A stretch of DNA of 10,196 nucleotides from Bacteriovoracales bacterium (lineage in GTDB: Bacteria > Bdellovibrionota > Bacteriovoracia > Bacteriovoracales > Bacteriovoracaceae): assembly GCA_007117175.1 (NCBI GenBank), contig SKGZ01000272.1, positions 1 to 10,196 on the forward strand, given 5' to 3'. Shown here piece after piece: positions 2,004 to 10,196 of the stretch; position 1 is the stretch's first letter; each line of letters begins with the position of its first letter. Made by a program: the position numbers and the translations under genes. Under the pieces are notes generated by a model. It worked only from the letters and a program-made list of their open reading frames with translations. It was not told the origin of the DNA and made no database searches.

Positions 2004-2031
2004 TATCTTAATGAGGGACCATTAATAGATA
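2004..2031 (-). terminator. Weak hairpin over the porin stop codon
   Basis: TTAATG (2008-2013) and CATTAA (2020-2025) pair around AGGGAC, and TATC/GATA outside extends the stem with a 2-nt bulge. The porin stop codon (2022-2024) lies within it. The stem is AT-rich and no T run follows on the minus strand, so termination here is doubtful. Confidence 0.2.
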
Positions 2032-3209
2032 AAACCAAAACCAATTTCCAATTGGTTAGCTTGTCCTAGGGTGGTATTGGGATGGTGATTCTTGCGAAAT
2101 TGAAAATTACCTTTAAAAACTAGATTGCGTTTGGGGCGAATATTAACACCTAATGTAATAATTTCAAGGTCCTGTCTTTCGGTGGTAAGGTTCATCAGCG
2201 CTGGGTCAATTTGCCCGTGAGTATCCAGTCTTTCATAGCGAATAAAAAGCGGTATTTTCCAGTCCGGATTCAGTGAGGTGTGGGGATTAATATCATAGCG
2301 AATTTCGCTATAGTGGCCTTTGACTTGGCTTCCCATGACTTGTCCGCTGACTTGGTAGAGTTGTTCGGTTTGAGAAAGTGAGCCACGAGTGAGCAAAGTG
2401 AAGAACTGCCATTGCCCCAGGGTCCATTCCAGGTAAGAGGAGACTAAGTTGAGCCTGGGATTCATTTGAGCGTTGTGATGGCCAGCAGTACCAGTGTAGC
2501 CTGAGAGAGCAAAGGCCAGTTCATTTTCTTTGTCATATTTAATTTGTCCGTTGAATGCACCGTTGGCCGGACGATCAAAGCCCATAAAGCGGCCATCTCG
2601 GGCCCAAGTGCTCTCGCGAAATTCTTGGGCGTCTAGTCCCTTGGTGATTCCTAGGCTGTACTCCCAATGCTCACTTAAATTTCCATAGAACATCACTCCC
2701 GGCTCAACCCATTGAGAGGGGATGATTAAGCGCTCAACCTCCGGTCGATTGACGGTGTAAAAGGCAATGGGTTCTTCATTAATATTCACATAGCCTATAG
2801 GCAGAGGGTAATTTCCCACTCGCAAGTTAAATTTTGGGTGAATGAGAAAATCGATCATGGCCTCGATATTGGCTTCAAACAGACTGTGATGAACTCCGTC
2901 ATGGATAAACTCGAATTGAAAATCACTATTAAAGATGATTCGATCAGTAAATTTATAACCAAAATAAGTACCAGAGCGGTAGAGATTGGTGTAATAGCTT
3001 TCCAGTTCTCCCGATCGGTTTTTACTTTCGGTATAGTGAACACCGTTAATTTCCCCAAAGCCGCTAAAAGAAAATTTTTGATCGGCGGTGTAGATCTTAG
3101 AAGCGGCGTTGGCCAGACCTGCTTGTTTGATATACTTAAGGTCAGGAACCAGTTCGTCGGCTAGCAAAGTGTTATTATAAATAAAAAGCAAAATCGCCAA
3201 ATACTTCAT
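2022..3209 (-). CDS. Outer-membrane porin, OprP/phosphate-selective-porin-like
   Basis: This 395-residue exported beta-barrel protein should form a diffusion channel in the outer membrane. A signal peptide (MKYLAILLFIYNNTLLA, cleavage probably after A17) is followed by a mature protein of alternating hydrophobic/polar strands rich in aromatic residues. It ends in EIGFGFIY with a terminal aromatic, as BAM-inserted barrels do. The blocks RVGNYPLPIGYVNINEEP, FYTVNRPEVERLIIPSQW and, further on, GLDAQEF with WARDGR are what I associate with the porin O/P-like group. Solute is unknown; family names such as phosphate-selective are not reliable predictors. I chose the ATG at 3209 because the signal peptide begins there. 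The frame continues to 3287, but that would put a long odd extension before the signal peptide and overlap the divergent flavoprotein gene. No Shine-Dalgarno precedes 3209, and a promoter-like pair sits just upstream. Confidence 0.82.
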   Translation of the reverse strand: MKYLAILLFIYNNTLLADELVPDLKYIKQAGLANAASKIYTADQKFSFSGFGEINGVHYTESKNRSGELESYYTNLYRSGTYFGYKFTDRIIFNSDFQFEFIHDGVHHSLFEANIEAMIDFLIHPKFNLRVGNYPLPIGYVNINEEPIAFYTVNRPEVERLIIPSQWVEPGVMFYGNLSEHWEYSLGITKGLDAQEFRESTWARDGRFMGFDRPANGAFNGQIKYDKENELAFALSGYTGTAGHHNAQMNPRLNLVSSYLEWTLGQWQFFTLLTRGSLSQTEQLYQVSGQVMGSQVKGHYSEIRYDINPHTSLNPDWKIPLFIRYERLDTHGQIDPALMNLTTERQDLEIITLGVNIRPKRNLVFKGNFQFRKNHHPNTTLGQANQLEIGFGFIY

Positions 3210-3218
3210 CACTATGCT

Positions 3219-3248
3219 ATTATTGTAGCAATTGAATTTCATCGTCAA
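3219..3248 (-). promoter_or_regulatory. Putative porin promoter
   Basis: On the minus strand TTGACG (3243-3248) is followed by TACAAT at 3222-3227 (spacer 15) or AATAAT at 3219-3224 (spacer 18). Either pairing puts the transcription start about 3-6 nt before the ATG at 3209, so the porin mRNA may be nearly leaderless. This agrees with the missing Shine-Dalgarno. Confidence 0.4.
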
Positions 3249-3254
3249 TTGAAT
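3229..3254. repeat. Direct repeat CAATTGAAT, 17-bp period, between divergent genes
   Basis: CAATTGAAT occurs at 3229-3237 and again at 3246-3254. Each copy starts with the palindrome CAATTG. The copies lie within the 55 bp separating the porin and flavoprotein starts and overlap the putative porin -35 box. A regulator site for both genes is possible, though two copies of an AT-rich 9-mer could be chance. Confidence 0.35.
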
Positions 3255-3264
3255 GAGGGATACT

Positions 3265-4641
3265 ATGAAAAAAATTGAAGTGGCCATTATTGGGGCTGGA
3301 ACTGCAGGATTGACTGCTCGCAGACAGGTGGCGGCTCACACCTCAAATTATTTGGTTTTTGATGGGGGAGAGTTAGGCACGACCTGCGCTAGAGTGGGTT
3401 GTATGCCCTCTAAGGTTTTAATACAAGCGGCTAATGATTATTATCGTTTGCAAAAAATAGCCCAAGAGGGAATTGAAGTGGGGGCCAGTAAAGTTCACGG
3501 GGTACAGGTGATGAAGCATGTGCGCCAATTGCGCGATCGCTTTACCTCGGGAGTGATTCGCTCCCATGAAAATTGGCAAGAGCATTTAATTCGTCATCAT
3601 GTTCGCTTTATTGATGAGCACACCTTTGAGGCGGGAGGTGAAAAGTACTTTGCAGAAAAAATAATTATTGCCACCGGCTCTTCTCCTTTTATTCCCGATC
3701 AATGGCAGCAGTACTCTGATTTTATCATGACCACTGATCAATTCTTTGAGCTAGAGGACTTACCTGATAATCTAGCTGTGATTGGCATGGGAGTGATTGG
3801 TATTGAGCTAGGACAGGCCCTAGCACGCTTGGGTAAAAAAGTGCACAGCTTTAGTTCGAATCGGCGCTTAGGTGGTCTACAAGATCCAGTTATTCAAAAT
3901 TATGCTGTTGACTTGATGGCCCAAGAAATGGATTTATCCTTTCAAAGAGCAAAACCCATGGGAGTCAGCTCCAGCGGAAAGTTAATTGTAGGTGAGGCTG
4001 ATCAGCAGTTTGAGTTTGATCGAGTCCTTTTAACCATGGGACGAAGGGCCAATCTTTCACAATTAGCTCATCCAATCTTTGAAAATGCCCAAGTGGATGC
4101 ACACACCATGCAGTTAAAGGGGCATCCCCATATTTTTATTGCTGGAGATGCTAATTCTGAAAAACCTCTCTTGCACGAAGCAGCTGATGAGGGGGTGATT
4201 GCCGGTCGCAATGCTATGGCTGGTGTAGAGAAAAATTATCGCCGTAGAGTTTTTCTTTCCATTACATTTTCTGAGCCCAATATTGTCATGGTGGGAGAGA
4301 ACTTTTTGCAATTAAGTGAGAAAAAAGTAGACTTTGTCACCGGCTCAGTCAGTTTTGAAGGGCAGGGGCGAAGCTTGGTGAAGTTAAAAAACAAAGGACT
4401 TTTACATGTCTATGTGCAGCGACAAACCGGTGAGATTCTGGGAGCAGAGATGATTGCTCCTGATGGGGAACATCTAGGGCACTTAATCGCTTGGGCCATC
4501 AGTTGTCAGTTAAGTGTCTTGCAAGTTTTAGCTCTGCCTTTTTACCATCCAGTGGTGGAAGAGGGGTTAAGGACTGCATTAAGAGATGCTGCTCAACAAA
4601 CAGTTTTAGCAAGTGAGTCGCTAGAGGTTTTCCCTCTTTAG
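3265..4641 (+). CDS. Dihydrolipoamide dehydrogenase-like FAD/NAD(P) disulfide oxidoreductase
   Basis: This 458-residue protein is a class I pyridine nucleotide-disulfide oxidoreductase, the family of dihydrolipoamide dehydrogenase, glutathione reductase and mercuric reductase. It is cytoplasmic and would pass electrons between NAD(P)H and a disulfide through FAD. The FAD-binding GxGxxG is GAGTAG at 10-15. The redox-active disulfide is C41-ARVG-C46 followed by MPSK. A second nucleotide site appears in the VIGMGVIGIELGQAL block. FIAGDAN precedes LLHEAADEG, and the C-terminal dimerisation domain carries the catalytic pair H428-PVVE-E433 in FYHPVVEEGLRTALRD. All catalytic residues are present. 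It resembles the shorter, stand-alone dihydrolipoamide dehydrogenase-like branch. No pyruvate or 2-oxoglutarate dehydrogenase gene is nearby, so the true substrate is open. The ATG at 3265 has GAGGG 5 nt upstream (3255-3259); the in-frame ATG at 3253 would add MRDT and lacks such a site. Confidence 0.88.
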   Translation: MKKIEVAIIGAGTAGLTARRQVAAHTSNYLVFDGGELGTTCARVGCMPSKVLIQAANDYYRLQKIAQEGIEVGASKVHGVQVMKHVRQLRDRFTSGVIRSHENWQEHLIRHHVRFIDEHTFEAGGEKYFAEKIIIATGSSPFIPDQWQQYSDFIMTTDQFFELEDLPDNLAVIGMGVIGIELGQALARLGKKVHSFSSNRRLGGLQDPVIQNYAVDLMAQEMDLSFQRAKPMGVSSSGKLIVGEADQQFEFDRVLLTMGRRANLSQLAHPIFENAQVDAHTMQLKGHPHIFIAGDANSEKPLLHEAADEGVIAGRNAMAGVEKNYRRRVFLSITFSEPNIVMVGENFLQLSEKKVDFVTGSVSFEGQGRSLVKLKNKGLLHVYVQRQTGEILGAEMIAPDGEHLGHLIAWAISCQLSVLQVLALPFYHPVVEEGLRTALRDAAQQTVLASESLEVFPL

Positions 4642-4647
4642 TTTTTT
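4621..4647 (+). terminator. Probable intrinsic terminator of the flavoprotein gene
   Basis: AGAGG (4623-4627) pairs with CCTCT (4633-4637) around TTTTC, and CT/AG outside can add two pairs across a small bulge. Six T residues follow at 4642-4647. The hairpin lies over the last codons and the TAG stop (4639-4641), so the terminator is built into the end of the gene. On the minus strand the same hairpin has no T run. Confidence 0.5.
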
Positions 4648-5735
4648 CTAGCTGGAATAAAATTAAAGGCACGTGTTACTTTCGCGCAACACAGGTAGCA
4701 GCTTTCATCAATGGGAGTGTTTTGAATTAACTTGAGAAAGTCCTGGTTTTGATCTTCACTGATCACAATGCGAAGGAGTTGGTGGGCGGGGACAATGTCA
4801 TCACTTTCAAGGTTTAAAAGCTTACTGGGCTGAATGGTGGCACCACTGATACCAATAGAGTTTAAGGCCTTGGTGATTAAGGAGCAATCTTGCTCTTCAG
4901 CGTGAACAATATATTCATAACCACTAAAGTAACGGGTATTTTTTTGCTTCTTGATTTTTTGTTGAGAGCGTCTCCAATGGATATTTCCTTTCAAAGAGTC
5001 AATGGCCGCGATCATTTGCTCTAAAGCGGCAGCGTGGGAAATAGGATCTTGAGATGGCTTTAAATGAACAATTCCCTTGTGAAGAGGTGTCTGCCAAATA
5101 AAGCCGCGGCCGGGACGATTCAGTCTTCCATCGTAAATCATGTGCTCAAAAATAGAGGGAGCTTCTTCTGCGCCGCTCACTACTGTTAGAATTTCTTTTT
5201 CCTTGGGGATGGTAATGCGCAATAATCCGATTTGATCCCTTAGGCCTGTTCCCGAGGCGCTGAGAATGGTAGGAACAATTCCATGGTTAAGTGCCACTTC
5301 ACAAAGTTCATTATTTTGACCTCTGGCAGTTGTGCAAAAAGTTTGGGTGAGGTTTTCAAACAGAGCAATTGAGGATTTTTGCTCTACTTGAACCTGATTG
5401 ATAAGATGATCAATTGATTTATTAAAACTGACTTCTCTGGAGATAATCGAACCTCGGCCTGTGATATCAAACTGGCACAGTTCTGCGATGCTTTTCATCA
5501 CTTTCTCTTCATCATCTTCAGTGACATAGAAGAAGATTGTTTCAAAAGAGTCTACTTCTATATGACTGCCGATCAGGCGAGTTAAAAAGTTTGCTTGAGA
5601 TTGATAAGCACATCTAGAAAATGAGTAATAGACTCGATAGATTCCCATTTTAGCTAATTGATCAAAAAAATCTTTAGCCAACGAGGTTCTGAGAAAGACA
5701 GTGATCTTGCAAAATGTTTTTTGAATATTATCCAT
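4638..5735 (-). CDS. Triple P-II-like regulatory protein linked to DUF1538 transporter
   Basis: This 365-residue soluble protein has no signal peptide or membrane segment. I read three successive P-II-like modules. Module A is about 8-104, with FETIFFYVTEDDEEKVMKSI then DITGRGSIISREV. Module B is about 141-222, with HGIVPTILSASGTGLRD, then a strand and helix, then NRPGRGFIWQTPLHKGI. Module C is about 271-356, with ITKALNSIGISGATIQP then LLRIVISEDQNQDFLKLI. P-II proteins are ferredoxin-like homotrimers that bind adenine nucleotides between subunits and dock on transporters or enzymes, so three modules in one chain could form a pseudotrimer. Modules A and B keep the PGRG/TGRG turn; C lacks it and ends in C346-x-x-C349-C350. 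Its ATG lies inside the end of the DUF1538 gene (8-nt overlap, ATGGATAA), which implies translational coupling and a shared job. Small P-II-like proteins are commonly encoded beside DUF1538 genes. The two-module reading is fairly secure, the third less so. Ligand unknown. Confidence 0.65.
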   Translation of the reverse strand: MDNIQKTFCKITVFLRTSLAKDFFDQLAKMGIYRVYYSFSRCAYQSQANFLTRLIGSHIEVDSFETIFFYVTEDDEEKVMKSIAELCQFDITGRGSIISREVSFNKSIDHLINQVQVEQKSSIALFENLTQTFCTTARGQNNELCEVALNHGIVPTILSASGTGLRDQIGLLRITIPKEKEILTVVSGAEEAPSIFEHMIYDGRLNRPGRGFIWQTPLHKGIVHLKPSQDPISHAAALEQMIAAIDSLKGNIHWRRSQQKIKKQKNTRYFSGYEYIVHAEEQDCSLITKALNSIGISGATIQPSKLLNLESDDIVPAHQLLRIVISEDQNQDFLKLIQNTPIDESCYLCCAKVTRAFNFIPARKN

Positions 5736-7518
5736 ATTTCAGTGCACTCTTTCGTTGGTATTCACTCCAAAAACCAACAGTTAAAACTGAGATAATGGGA
5801 CAAACAGAGGCCATTGCTAAGATGCCAAAGCCCTCTATAGCTGCTGACTCCAGTCCGATTCCTGTGCCTAATGCTAACACTAATGGTACAGTCACCGGCC
5901 CAGTGGTGACACCTGCGGAATCCCATGCAATGTTGACAAATTCTTCATTGGAAAAAAAAGACAAAATAAGTAAAAAACAATAAAGAGGAATCAAGAAGTA
6001 GGTCAGTGGCAAGTGCAGAATAATTTTGAGTAATCCTAATAAAATTCCTACCCCAACTCCCATGGCAACTGATTGAATCAAGAGGTTCTTCTTAAAAACA
6101 CCCACTGAAATACGCTCAACAGTGCTACCTAAAGCATTGAGTGCAGGCTCAGCTAAGGTGGAGCCATAACCCATGAAGAAAGCAAAAAACAAGACCACTA
6201 AATAGCCCTTCATATTCCAGCCTGCTTCACTTTGCCAAAGTGGACCATAGCGCAGCGGGTAAGTATAAGTCATCTTTTGCTTGTCAAAGTATTGCTCTTC
6301 AAAAAGAATCTCTTGGGTTTGATTCTGCGGATTTAAAAAATAAAAGAATGTTTCAATCTCTCCACTGGAGTTATAGCGATAATAGGTTTTTTGAGGATCA
6401 AAGTTTTCAATGGTAATTTGTTGATCACTTTCAATGCTGGTGTAAGCCACTGGTAGGGACTGACCAATTTGATTTCCCAGATCCTTAAATCCAGTGTTAA
6501 TTCCGAGAGTAAAGATGCTAAATCCTAAGAGAGAAAAAATAAGACCGAGAATAATCTCATCTGCATGAAGAAATTTTTCTTTGAGAAGAATTTTATAAAC
6601 AAAGAACATAAAAGCAATCAGCGGAAGGATGGCCTGGGCTGCCACCATAAAACTTTCGAAGAGTTGAGTAAGGATGAGGGGTTGAGACTGCTCAGATAAA
6701 CTTTGAGGCAGGGCAAGGGCGGAAAACTCAGAAAAGTCCTTGGTCAGATCATAATAGAGACACAAAGTTAAAACACTGATGATAGGAAAAAGTGAAGCCA
6801 GCGTCACTACCCCCAGACCACTACTGGCACCTTCACTGGTGTGACCACTCACCACACGACTGACTCCTAGCCCTAATGCCAAGACCAGTGGAACGGTCAC
6901 CGGCCCTGTGGTGACAGCGCCGCAATCCCAGGCTAAAGAGACAATATGTGAAAAGTTTTCGCTGAAAAACCCGTAAGAACTAAGGGCCAAACAACTGATC
7001 ACACTGGGGTAGAGAAAGGGCTTTAGTGACCAGTCTTTAAGAAAACGCAACATTCCAGCTATCACGGCCAGTCCAACTCCGATGGCCACCGCACTGACTA
7101 ATTCTTTTGGTCTTTGATACAGTAAAAAGTGTAGAAGCGGTGCTTTTTCAGGATCAACCTGTGAACCCATCATATGTAAAACAGAAATTGCCGGCTCGGC
7201 AAAGGTGGCACCAAGCCCTAAAATAAAAGCAAAGATCAGAATATGCCATAGGCGAGCATTGGCCGGTAGTTTAAGCCCAAGACTTTCGCCCACTGGCATG
7301 ATTCCTAAAATGAGTCCTTCCATAAAAAGAGTAAGACCAACAATAATGGCGACAATGCCCATGGCGATACTAAAAGCATTTTCAATGGGAATTTTAAGAA
7401 TGAAAAGTTGAAAGAAAATAAGATAGAGAATAATAAAGGAAACTACTTTCACTTGCGCCATCAGACGAGTTTTAAAATAGCCTGTCAAAAGACTGATCTT
7501 ATCTTTAAGCGTTAACAT
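5728..7518 (-). CDS. DUF1538 membrane protein, tandem duplication (putative cation/H+ antiporter)
   Basis: This 596-residue inner-membrane protein has about 14 hydrophobic segments in two homologous halves. Landmarks repeat at a 335-residue interval: AEPA at 107-110 and 456-459 (in ATFAEPAI and STLAEPAL), then WDCGAVTTGPVTVPLVLALG at 197-216 and WDSAGVTTGPVTVPLVLALG at 532-551, then FPIISVLT and CPIISVLT. These are DUF1538 signatures. From memory, a two-subunit DUF1538 pair (UmpAB) from Halomonas was reported as a Na+(Li+,K+)/H+ antiporter; here both units are fused. The second unit holds a hydrophilic insert at about 357-437, rich in Tyr, Gln and Glu and flanked by membrane segments, probably outside the cytoplasm. 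It has no counterpart in the first unit. I chose the ATG at 7518; an in-frame TTG at 7545 would add nine residues. No Shine-Dalgarno is present, but a promoter places transcription start about 3 nt upstream. The P-II-like gene follows with an 8-nt overlap. Confidence 0.85.
   Translation of the reverse strand: MLTLKDKISLLTGYFKTRLMAQVKVVSFIILYLIFFQLFILKIPIENAFSIAMGIVAIIVGLTLFMEGLILGIMPVGESLGLKLPANARLWHILIFAFILGLGATFAEPAISVLHMMGSQVDPEKAPLLHFLLYQRPKELVSAVAIGVGLAVIAGMLRFLKDWSLKPFLYPSVISCLALSSYGFFSENFSHIVSLAWDCGAVTTGPVTVPLVLALGLGVSRVVSGHTSEGASSGLGVVTLASLFPIISVLTLCLYYDLTKDFSEFSALALPQSLSEQSQPLILTQLFESFMVAAQAILPLIAFMFFVYKILLKEKFLHADEIILGLIFSLLGFSIFTLGINTGFKDLGNQIGQSLPVAYTSIESDQQITIENFDPQKTYYRYNSSGEIETFFYFLNPQNQTQEILFEEQYFDKQKMTYTYPLRYGPLWQSEAGWNMKGYLVVLFFAFFMGYGSTLAEPALNALGSTVERISVGVFKKNLLIQSVAMGVGVGILLGLLKIILHLPLTYFLIPLYCFLLILSFFSNEEFVNIAWDSAGVTTGPVTVPLVLALGTGIGLESAAIEGFGILAMASVCPIISVLTVGFWSEYQRKSALKYG
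5867..5928. repeat. Internal repeat copy 1 (second DUF1538 unit)
   Basis: This 62-bp segment is about 80% identical at DNA level to 6872-6933, 1005 bp away. It encodes the AWDSAGVTTGPVTVPLVLAL block of the second half of the DUF1538 protein. The match reflects the internal duplication of the protein, with strong conservation of the VTTGPVTVPLVLALG core. Confidence 0.8.
6872..6933. repeat. Internal repeat copy 2 (first DUF1538 unit)
   Basis: Counterpart of 5867-5928, encoding the AWDCGAVTTGPVTVPLVLAL block of the first half. The 1005-bp offset equals the 335-residue repeat period of the protein. Confidence 0.8.
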
Positions 7519-7527
7519 ATGAATTTT

Positions 7528-7556
7528 ATTATGAACAATCCTCAATTGGTTGTCGA
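7528..7556 (-). promoter_or_regulatory. Putative promoter of the DUF1538 / P-II-like operon
   Basis: On the minus strand TCGACA (7551-7556) is separated by 17 bp from CATAAT (7528-7533); each differs from consensus at one base. The predicted transcription start is about 3 nt before the ATG at 7518, so the message would be essentially leaderless, matching the absence of a ribosome binding site. The -35 box overlaps that of the divergent ATPase promoter. Confidence 0.5.
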
Positions 7557-7578
7557 ATGATTTTTATTGTTTTATAAG
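7550..7578 (+). promoter_or_regulatory. Putative promoter of the P-type ATPase gene
   Basis: TTGTCG (7550-7555) is separated by 17 bp from TATAAG (7573-7578). The predicted transcription start, seven bases past the -10 box, coincides with the ATG at 7585. No Shine-Dalgarno is present, which fits a leaderless message. The -35 box shares 7551-7555 with the -35 of the opposite operon, so the two promoters should compete or be co-controlled. Confidence 0.5.
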
Positions 7579-7584
7579 CATAGT

Positions 7585-10196
7585 ATGGATTTCAATCAAA
7601 ATTGGCACGCCATGCAAGCAGAGCATGTCTTGGAGCATTTGCAATCAAATCTTAAAACTGGTTTAACTCAGCAGCAAAGAGAGCAGCGCTTGCAAGCCGA
7701 TGGGAAAAATATTTTGGCTAAGGCCAAGAGCACTTCAATGCTCAAGTTATTTTTCTCACAATTTTCTCAACCTTTAGTTTTAATTTTACTCTTGGCTGGA
7801 TTTTTAACCTTGGCCTTATCTGAGTGGCTGGATTGCACGGTCATTTTTTTAGTCGTGATCCTCAATGCACTGATTGGTTTTGTGCAAGAGAAAAAGGCAA
7901 TACAGGCCATCAGTGCTCTGGATCAAGCCTTGGAATCTTTTGCAACAGTTCTCATCGATGGCACTGCCACTCGCTTAAACTCTCAACAAATAGTGAGAGG
8001 AGATATTCTGACTTTGCAAGCTGGAGATAAGATTCCAGCAGATGTTTACCTACTGAAAAGTAAAGATTTCAGAACAGATGAATCCAGTTTAACGGGTGAG
8101 TCAGTTCCGGTGGAAAAAAAGACTGGGCCATTGCCCCAAGACCGCCCTTTAGCGGATCGAAAAAATTTGGCCTTTGGTGGTACTCTAGTGACTTATGGCT
8201 CTGCTAAAGCAGTGGTGATTGCGACTGGTCATCAGACCCAAGTTGGGAGGATTTCAGACTTAGTCAACCGTGCCGATCTTTTAGAAACACCTTTAACATT
8301 AAAGATTAAAAAATTTAGTCACGCCTTACTAATTGCCATCCTTTTACTTTCATCTCTTTTATTTTTTCTAAGCCTTGCTCGCTCTATGACTTGGCTTGAT
8401 TCTTTCATGGGAGCAGTGGCCTTAATGGTGGCGGCTATCCCTGAAGGATTGCCCGCGGCTATGACTATTATGCTCTCCATGGGAGTCAGTCGTATGGCCA
8501 GGAAAAAAGCCATTGTTAGGCAATTACCTGCAGTGGAAACCTTGGGCAGTACCACTGTTATTTGTTCAGATAAAACTGGAACCTTGACTCAAAATCAAAT
8601 GACAGTGACTCATTTAATCACAGCTCAGCAGACCCTCAAGGTCAGTGGTCAAGGTTATCTACCAGAAGGGGAAATCGCAGGGGATCATGATGATCCGGAT
8701 TTAGATTGGCTATTACAAATTGGACAAGATTGTAATGACTCTCGCTTAATTCAGCATCAAGGCCAATGGAAAATTGAAGGTGATCCTACAGAGGGGGCAC
8801 TGCTGGTAGTTGCCCAAAAGTATGGCAAACTTAAAGAGCTAACACGCTTAGATAGCATTGCCTTTCAATCGGAGTATCAATACATGGCCACTTTAAATCA
8901 AACCGATCAGGGCAAGATGCTCTTGGCCAAGGGATCTATTGAAGCATTAAAATCGAGATGTCTTAATTTTGATGAGCAGTACTGGACAGCTCAGGTGGAA
9001 AAATTAGCCAGTCAAGGTTTGCGCTTATTGGCCTTTGCCTATAAGAAAATTGATTCTGAGCAAGTAGAAATTGATCACCAGGATATGCAGCAGCTTCACT
9101 TTGTTGGTTTGCAGGCTATGATGGATCCACCACGTGAATCAGTCAAGGATGCTATTGCCCTTTGTTTTCAAGCTGGCATTGCAGTGAAAATGATCACTGG
9201 AGATCATCAGGCGACTGCCATGAGTATTGCTCAGCAATTGGGTCTTAAGGTTCAAGAAGATGGAGTGATGACCGGTGCTCAATTAGCAAATATCAGTGAA
9301 GAACACTTAAGACAAAGAGTGGATGAGATTGTTGTCTTTGCTAGAGTCAGCCCTGAACAAAAACTAAAAATTGTTAAGGCCTTACAGCAGCGCAATGAAG
9401 TGGTGGCCATGACTGGAGATGGAGTCAACGATGCCCCCGCTTTACGACAGGCCAATATTGGTATTGCCATGGGATTCAGTGGCACCGATGTGGCCAGAGA
9501 AGCATCCGATCTTATTCTGACCGATGATGATTTTGCCTCTATTGAGTCAGCAGTTGAGGAGGGTAGAAATGTTTTTGATAATTTAAAGAAGTTTATTGTT
9601 TGGACCTTGCCCACCAATTTAGGTGAGGGGCTAGTTTTATTGGTGGCAATTTCCTTTGGTCTGAGCTTACCGCTAAGCCCAGTACAGATTTTATGGATCA
9701 ATATGGTGACCGCTATTTTTCTTGGTCTGGCCTTGGCCTTTGAACCCAAGGAAGTTGATCTGATGAGTAGACCCCCTCGCGATCCTGCGGCGAACTTACT
9801 GAGTTTGGAATTATTGATGAGAACATTTTTTGTGGGATTTTTCATTCTCTTTTGTTCAATGACCACCTTCTATCATCTCATCGGGCATGGGATGAGTCAT
9901 AGTTATGCTCAGACTGCGGTGGTCAATATCATTGTTTTCATTGAAGCCTTTTACCTTCTAAACTGTCGATCACTTTTAAGGCCTTTGACATTTTCACAAT
10001 TATTTTCAAATCCTTGGGTATGGATTGGATTATTGGTCACCAGCCTTTTACAATTATTACTGGTTTATCACCCCAGCATGCAAATGCTTTTTCAAACAGA
10101 AGCCCTGCAGTTAAGAACTTGGTTGATGATTTTATCAGCGAGTTTTTTGCTCTTTCTATTGATTCATGTGGAAAAAAGAATAAGGCTTTCTTTAAA
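7585..10196 (+). CDS. P2-type cation-transporting ATPase (C-terminus just outside window)
   Basis: This inner-membrane ATP-driven cation pump has 870 residues visible and is probably almost complete. Domains in order: N-terminal cytoplasmic region (1-60) of the cation-ATPase N domain type; first membrane pair (about 63-102); actuator domain with TGES at 170-173; membrane pair ending in the ion-site motif PEGLP (286-290); phosphorylation site D329-KTGT; nucleotide-binding domain; hinge TGDGVND (610-616); then C-terminal membrane helices. Ion-site positions comparable to SERCA include E287 (M4), N678 and E681 (M5), N706 and T709 (M6) and E787 (M8). The key M6 aspartate of SERCA (D800) is replaced by alanine (A710, in INMVTAIFLGLALAFEP). 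Ca2+ specificity should therefore not be assumed; Na+, K+ or another cation is possible. No HMA or cysteine-rich metal motif is seen, which argues against Cu+ or Zn2+. It is transcribed divergently from the DUF1538 operon. Confidence 0.9.
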   Translation, partial: MDFNQNWHAMQAEHVLEHLQSNLKTGLTQQQREQRLQADGKNILAKAKSTSMLKLFFSQFSQPLVLILLLAGFLTLALSEWLDCTVIFLVVILNALIGFVQEKKAIQAISALDQALESFATVLIDGTATRLNSQQIVRGDILTLQAGDKIPADVYLLKSKDFRTDESSLTGESVPVEKKTGPLPQDRPLADRKNLAFGGTLVTYGSAKAVVIATGHQTQVGRISDLVNRADLLETPLTLKIKKFSHALLIAILLLSSLLFFLSLARSMTWLDSFMGAVALMVAAIPEGLPAAMTIMLSMGVSRMARKKAIVRQLPAVETLGSTTVICSDKTGTLTQNQMTVTHLITAQQTLKVSGQGYLPEGEIAGDHDDPDLDWLLQIGQDCNDSRLIQHQGQWKIEGDPTEGALLVVAQKYGKLKELTRLDSIAFQSEYQYMATLNQTDQGKMLLAKGSIEALKSRCLNFDEQYWTAQVEKLASQGLRLLAFAYKKIDSEQVEIDHQDMQQLHFVGLQAMMDPPRESVKDAIALCFQAGIAVKMITGDHQATAMSIAQQLGLKVQEDGVMTGAQLANISEEHLRQRVDEIVVFARVSPEQKLKIVKALQQRNEVVAMTGDGVNDAPALRQANIGIAMGFSGTDVAREASDLILTDDDFASIESAVEEGRNVFDNLKKFIVWTLPTNLGEGLVLLVAISFGLSLPLSPVQILWINMVTAIFLGLALAFEPKEVDLMSRPPRDPAANLLSLELLMRTFFVGFFILFCSMTTFYHLIGHGMSHSYAQTAVVNIIVFIEAFYLLNCRSLLRPLTFSQLFSNPWVWIGLLVTSLLQLLLVYHPSMQMLFQTEALQLRTWLMILSASFLLFLLIHVEKRIRLSL

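Follow-up and report, generated by a model that had tools for sequence, protein, structure and literature searches.

The question raised by this locus is how a P-II-type signal protein might work when three of its modules are strung on one chain, and what such a chain would control. The locus lies in a 10,196-nucleotide (nt) stretch of DNA from a Bacteriovoracales bacterium (contig SKGZ01000272.1), referred to at its full length as the window. Here a gene for a 365-amino-acid (aa) protein directly follows a gene of the DUF1538 family. A preliminary description, made from the letters of the window, had read three successive P-II-like segments in this protein and had proposed that it regulates the DUF1538 transporter. 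The observation of three P-II-like modules in one chain beside a DUF1538 gene is confirmed, with the gene on the minus strand exactly where it had been placed (Table 1), and the interpretation is partly supported. The product of the triple gene is probably a P-II-type regulator dedicated to, and gating, a DUF1538 transporter of an UmpAB-like cation/proton kind, with its modules fused into a single asymmetric chain.

The AlphaFold model of the protein (predicted template modelling score, pTM, 0.85) consists of three consecutive beta-alpha-beta-beta-alpha-beta units, the fold of the P-II family, and Foldseek matches single P-II chains to it with a probability of 1.00. The rows that Foldseek ranked highest (sulfur oxygenase reductase and others), which would point to tandem alpha/beta-barrel kinship, were set aside at a template modelling (TM) score of 0.17 and a root-mean-square deviation of 20. 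All three modules also match P-II profiles. In hhalign comparisons, where the E-values are those of single pairwise comparisons and not of a database search, modules A and C matched canonical P-II with E-values of 2.3e-5 and 6.2e-8, and module B with 1.1e-3 over 44 columns only (probability 20%). Against a single P-II linked to DUF1538 (s1), the values were 8.8e-13 for A and 3.5e-14 for C, and lower still for B (Table 1); the control, an alignment of DUF1538 proteins, gave 0.51, 0.39 and 0.16 for A, B and C. The segment-by-segment profile comparison that the preliminary description had proposed does find P-II similarity in modules A and C. Module B starts near residue 126, not 141. At the level of the family, the profile matched P-II structures in the PDB (best E 9.7e-4), and PF00543 was matched by 18 of 33 close family members (E up to 1; best E 7.4e-10).

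Triple P-II proteins form a conserved family. Scanning species genomes with P-II patterns turned up 125 relatives, of which the best 80 and the window protein make a set of 81; being the best 80 of 125 and picked through P-II patterns, the loci are a biased sample. All 76 uncut homologues are triple, spanning the triple profile from position 20 or before to position 340 or beyond, and the remaining 5 of the 81 are truncated by contig ends. With three modules per chain in 76 of 76 uncut open reading frames (ORFs), the family departs from the P-II pattern of a homotrimer of single-domain chains. When 70 modules were placed in one tree, each of A, B and C fell into a single clade, with supports of 100/98, 97/98 and 96/85, in keeping with a single ancient fusion. 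The tree rests on 112 columns, with long branches and bootstraps still unsettled, and was used solely for the clade status of A, B and C; a grouping of module C with canonical P-II (45/85) was not used.

The coupling to DUF1538 that had been proposed from the window alone is borne out at the gene level, and much more strongly than one stretch of DNA could reveal. In the window the two genes overlap, as the preliminary description had noticed; with the P-II start codon, an ATG at 5735, and the DUF1538 stop codon at 5728-5730, they have 8 nt in common. Three of the 81 triple loci are truncated on the upstream side and were left out of the count. In every one of the remaining 78, a DUF1538 ORF precedes the P-II gene on the same strand, a linkage to a transporter gene in the manner of GlnK-AmtB, and the two ORFs overlap or lie at most 14 nt apart. 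The P-II domain starts -20 to 80 nt from the DUF1538 stop in 60 of the 78 loci, the 18 outside this range being due to N-terminal extensions or start choice. Across the window's phylum, a P-II match of this family and DUF1538 are found in the same 12 of 290 genomes. The P-II is triple in three of these (G000, G095, G175), two single genes in seven and a single gene in one, and in the last (G263) it is cut over two contigs. Canonical P-II was found in 1 of 30 relatives, and in the window's own genome (85% complete) its match reached only 16 bits, below the cut-off. Three loci (L053, L068, L077) contain, besides the triple pair, another DUF1538 gene of 513-520 aa with a P-II-like ORF of 239-284 aa after it.

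Elsewhere the P-II partner of DUF1538 comes as one gene, as two genes or as a protein of two modules. These forms share the partner and the gene order of the triple, and module B is nearest to s1, the first paired gene; they differ in that their chains hold one module or two, where the triple holds three. Of 299 genomes sampled in the phylum to which a Chromatiales record belongs, 115 have DUF1538, and loci were examined in 79 of these. A P-II ORF adjoins umpA/umpB or a fused DUF1538 gene in 29 of the 30 best-scoring loci and in 20 of 20 more. A further 28 genomes comprised all those with weaker DUF1538 matches save the Chromatiales record's own. The family profile matched in 23 of them. DUF1538 stands beside P-II in 22 of these 23 (a contig end truncates the last one), and 22 of the 23 have two consecutive P-II genes. 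The five without a profile match include one adjacent single P-II, one s1-like match in an ORF beside an assembly gap of 100 N (L264/L275), two loci cut by contig ends (L266 and L268) and one DUF1538 fragment with no P-II after it. In G290, the genome of the Chromatiales record itself, the P-II is triple. Among nine plasmid records, six were read, and a P-II ORF follows DUF1538 in 6 of 6; those of Alphaproteobacteria carry a single P-II and those of Clostridia a two-module protein of 217-224 aa. Five of the six are annotated as P-II family nitrogen regulator.

The window's DUF1538 protein matches PF07556 with 366.5 bits (cut-off 22.6), in two matches of 186 and 185 bits. Its structure model is confident (predicted local distance difference test, pLDDT, 90.0; pTM 0.89), and comparison of the model with solved structures gave no clear match. 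The positive charges in its loops are consistent with an inverted repeat whose C-terminus faces inward, the side where the P-II protein would be. The second repeat carries a beta insert. Every full-length DUF1538 protein from a triple locus has it (68 of 68, in a set not filtered for redundancy), and it is missing from 8 of 8 DUF1538 proteins with one or two single P-II genes and from 9 of 9 short fused proteins. In the window's phylum, four additional rows comprise three with the insert, two of them the same gene, and the cut case G263 without it. The insert thus goes with the triple P-II, G263 being the exception.

Conservation of sites was scored in 82 non-redundant triple proteins as the mean top-residue fraction. 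The T-loop of module B leads (Table 1), followed by the B-loop of B (0.77), the helix of the linker between modules B and C (0.69) and the B-loop of A (0.67); the cores of modules A and C score 0.42 and 0.38. At least 97% of the 82 proteins keep R166, D167, R173, T175, K180, D246, W254 and R255. The GxG turn of modules A and B is rare in module C (5 of 82), in agreement with the earlier remark that the third module had lost its GRG turn. The B-C linker has no match to P-II profiles in the hhalign comparison and is modelled with low confidence (pLDDT 45-50 in blocks 231-260). Conserved yet without a firm fold, it is a candidate contact with the transporter. Judged by sequence conservation, the likely working parts are the T-loop of module B, the B-loops of A and B, and the B-C linker. 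The one to three non-equivalent ligand sites first suggested are narrowed to these parts, the linker having gone unmentioned earlier. The suggestion that a CxxCC end of the third module senses redox state or metal did not survive: the motif is private to the window protein, and as a family feature it was rejected on its absence from every other of 110 aligned sequences.

In the mechanism we favor, three P-II subunits would have become one chain whose modules pack as an asymmetric pseudotrimer. This cytoplasmic regulator would sit on the inner face of the DUF1538 transporter encoded upstream. The latter would be a secondary transporter in which UmpA-like and UmpB-like parts are fused, and probably exchanges cations for protons as an antiporter. 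The regulator would respond to a small molecule, probably a nucleotide or some other anionic metabolite. The binding site, in one cleft or in two, would be formed by the GxG B-loops of A and B together with conserved arginines and lysines in the T-loop of module B. Binding would then shift the module B T-loop and the B-C linker, docked on the transporter, and so open or close it. The cation/proton idea comes from UmpAB of Halomonas zhaodongensis, the only DUF1538 pair found with a published function, a Na+(Li+,K+)/H+ antiporter according to its report (PMC5484666). Like the window's partner, UmpAB has two DUF1538 repeats, UmpA-like then UmpB-like, which are however encoded by two separate genes and not by one fused gene.

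Several results weigh against this picture. Taken alone, the window protein has no Pfam or NCBIfam P-II match (PF00543 is absent at E up to 10) and no phmmer match in the PDB; the P-II kinship is visible only at the level of the family. Among 62 DUF1538-linked modules the residues R38, Q39, K58, E62, K90, R101 and R103, which we take to be the canonical P-II ligands for ATP and 2-oxoglutarate, are mostly gone. K90, E62 and R38, along with K60, occur in none, R101 in 2, R103 in 3 and Q39 in 6, and K58 is kept in 33. Y51, presumably the T-loop tyrosine that is uridylylated in canonical P-II, likewise occurs in 0 of 62. A canonical ATP/2-oxoglutarate response is therefore unlikely, and the signal of the DUF1538-linked P-II proteins is likely, from these residues, a different ligand or a different binding mode. 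Because it has neither the canonical residue set nor the single-domain chains of the P-II homotrimer, the triple protein is filed as P-II-like, not as GlnB/GlnK. The window's DUF1538 protein also falls far below the cut-offs of the UmpA and UmpB equivalogs NF041627 and NF041628 (210.4 of 490 and 166.4 of 500 bits), so the ion it carries is a guess. Two loci break the gene coupling. At L155, UmpA-UmpB-like DUF1538 genes have no adjacent P-II; two other DUF1538 loci of that genome do have one, and a wider read of the place (L276) contains a run of 100 N. At L267 a 92-aa DUF1538 fragment lies at a contig end, with no P-II in the ~1.5 kb after it.

Other readings of the same data start from the assembly or from the direction of the signal. 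The modules might not close a trimer within one chain, and several chains would then assemble, for example like with like, into stacked trimers or a larger ring. The two-module and two-gene forms beside DUF1538 suit this arrangement, as two modules cannot close a trimer from one chain; but the pTM of the one-chain model suggests a defined arrangement of modules, and the number of modules is exactly three in every uncut ORF. We consider a multi-chain assembly unlikely. It is similarly improbable that the signal runs in reverse, the transporter reporting its ion or substrate status to a P-II protein that in turn controls different targets encoded at unlinked sites. One P-II protein can serve more than one target, as a recent review states (PMC10710835). 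Against this stand the same DUF1538 partner in 77 of 77 other evaluable loci and the presence of both genes in the same genomes of the phylum.

The loss of most canonical ligand residues and of the turn in module C would also fit a triple protein that has given up ligand binding and serves the transporter as an assembly or structural subunit. The near-invariant R166, R173, T175 and K180 and the GxG turns of A and B resemble a binding site that has been kept, and we consider such a role without a ligand quite unlikely. Very unlikely is a nitrogen system, in which the substrate of DUF1538 would be a nitrogen compound and the triple P-II would be related to GlnK. The P-II fold and JGI source names such as 'nitrogen regulatory protein PII', which are automatic labels, speak for it. 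A canonical nitrogen role is disfavored by the missing canonical residues, canonical P-II is scarce among the relatives, and UmpAB, according to its report (PMC5484666), carries cations. A ligand-responsive regulator gating DUF1538 remains the preferred reading.

Table 1. Positions of the triple P-II-like gene, its DUF1538 partner and their parts in the window
Feature	Position	Strand	Remarks
Triple P-II-like gene, 365 aa	4638..5735	-	ATG start; three modules by structure model and profile comparison
DUF1538 gene, 605 aa, two DUF1538 repeats (UmpA-like then UmpB-like)	5728..7545	-	TTG start
Overlap of DUF1538 stop and P-II start, 8 nt	5728..5735	-	
Module A, aa 7-104	5424..5717	-	
B-loop-like GxG turn of module A, aa 92-97	5445..5462	-	GxG in 80/82 relatives
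Module B, aa 126-222	5070..5360	-	Model; profiles; nearest is DUF1538-linked single P-II (hhalign E 2.6e-30)
T-loop of module B, aa 163-178	5202..5249	-	Best conserved stretch, mean top-residue fraction 0.83
B-loop-like GxG turn of module B, aa 208-213	5097..5114	-	GxG in 81/82 relatives
B-C linker with helix, aa 234-256 (A236, Q240, D246, W254, R255)	4968..5036	-	Conserved
Module C, aa 270-358, GxG turn lost	4662..4928	-	Model; profiles; family alignment
CYLCC, aa 346-350	4686..4700	-	Private to the window sequence, 1/110
Beta insert in DUF1538 repeat 2, aa 371-433	6247..6435	-	Predicted outside the membrane

The triple P-II gene and a convergent dihydrolipoyl-dehydrogenase-like gene (3253-4641, NF004939) overlap in their stop codons by 4 nt (4638-4641). 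The start of this oxidoreductase-like ORF overlaps that of a divergent OmpL-like porin ORF (2022-3287, PF07642) at 3253-3287, and one of the two starts is therefore probably misplaced. A divergent P-type ATPase gene (7567-10196, plus strand), encoding another cation transporter beside DUF1538, runs off the window end; its nearest model is a PMR1-type calcium pump, with a score of 655 bits, below the cut-off of 798. A RES/Xre toxin-antitoxin pair, both members above NCBIfam cut-offs, occupies 1059-1924 on the minus strand.

Two known systems invite comparison. GlnK and AmtB are both trimers and bind 1:1, according to the review cited above (PMC10710835). The DUF1538 system resembles them in the linkage of the two genes, in the P-II fold and in the T-loop as the likely contact, and differs in having three modules per chain, of which only module B has a strongly conserved T-loop, and in its DUF1538 partner. 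In SbtB-SbtA, too, a P-II-like protein, SbtB, regulates a secondary transporter, the signal being a nucleotide (PMC10710835); there a separate-chain trimer acts on a trimeric bicarbonate transporter of another family. No paper on a triple P-II or on DUF1538 with P-II was found in searches of an open-licence library. The terms 'DUF1538' and 'PII' came together there in a single paper, in which 'PII' is part of a sequence motif, and the main text of the UmpAB report (PMC5484666) has zero occurrences of P-II or PII.

The same review states that P-II control of transporters seems limited to transporters able to function as trimers (PMC10710835), and a single-chain triple P-II may be a way round this limit. 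With a chance slightly short of even, DUF1538/P-II ranks with AmtB-GlnK and SbtA-SbtB as a third major system of transporter control by P-II, and the triple form is a natural single-chain, symmetry-broken P-II with one working T-loop, controlling a single-chain inverted-repeat transporter that is not a trimer. Diverged modules in one chain would allow single sites and T-loops to be altered one by one, unlike in a homotrimer. The DUF1538 family gains a dedicated candidate regulator, nearly every locus read in the phylum of the Chromatiales record adjoining a P-II gene. Few signal proteins are as widespread as P-II, and the occurrence of DUF1538/P-II pairs across many bacteria suggests a widespread, little-studied ion-transporter switch.
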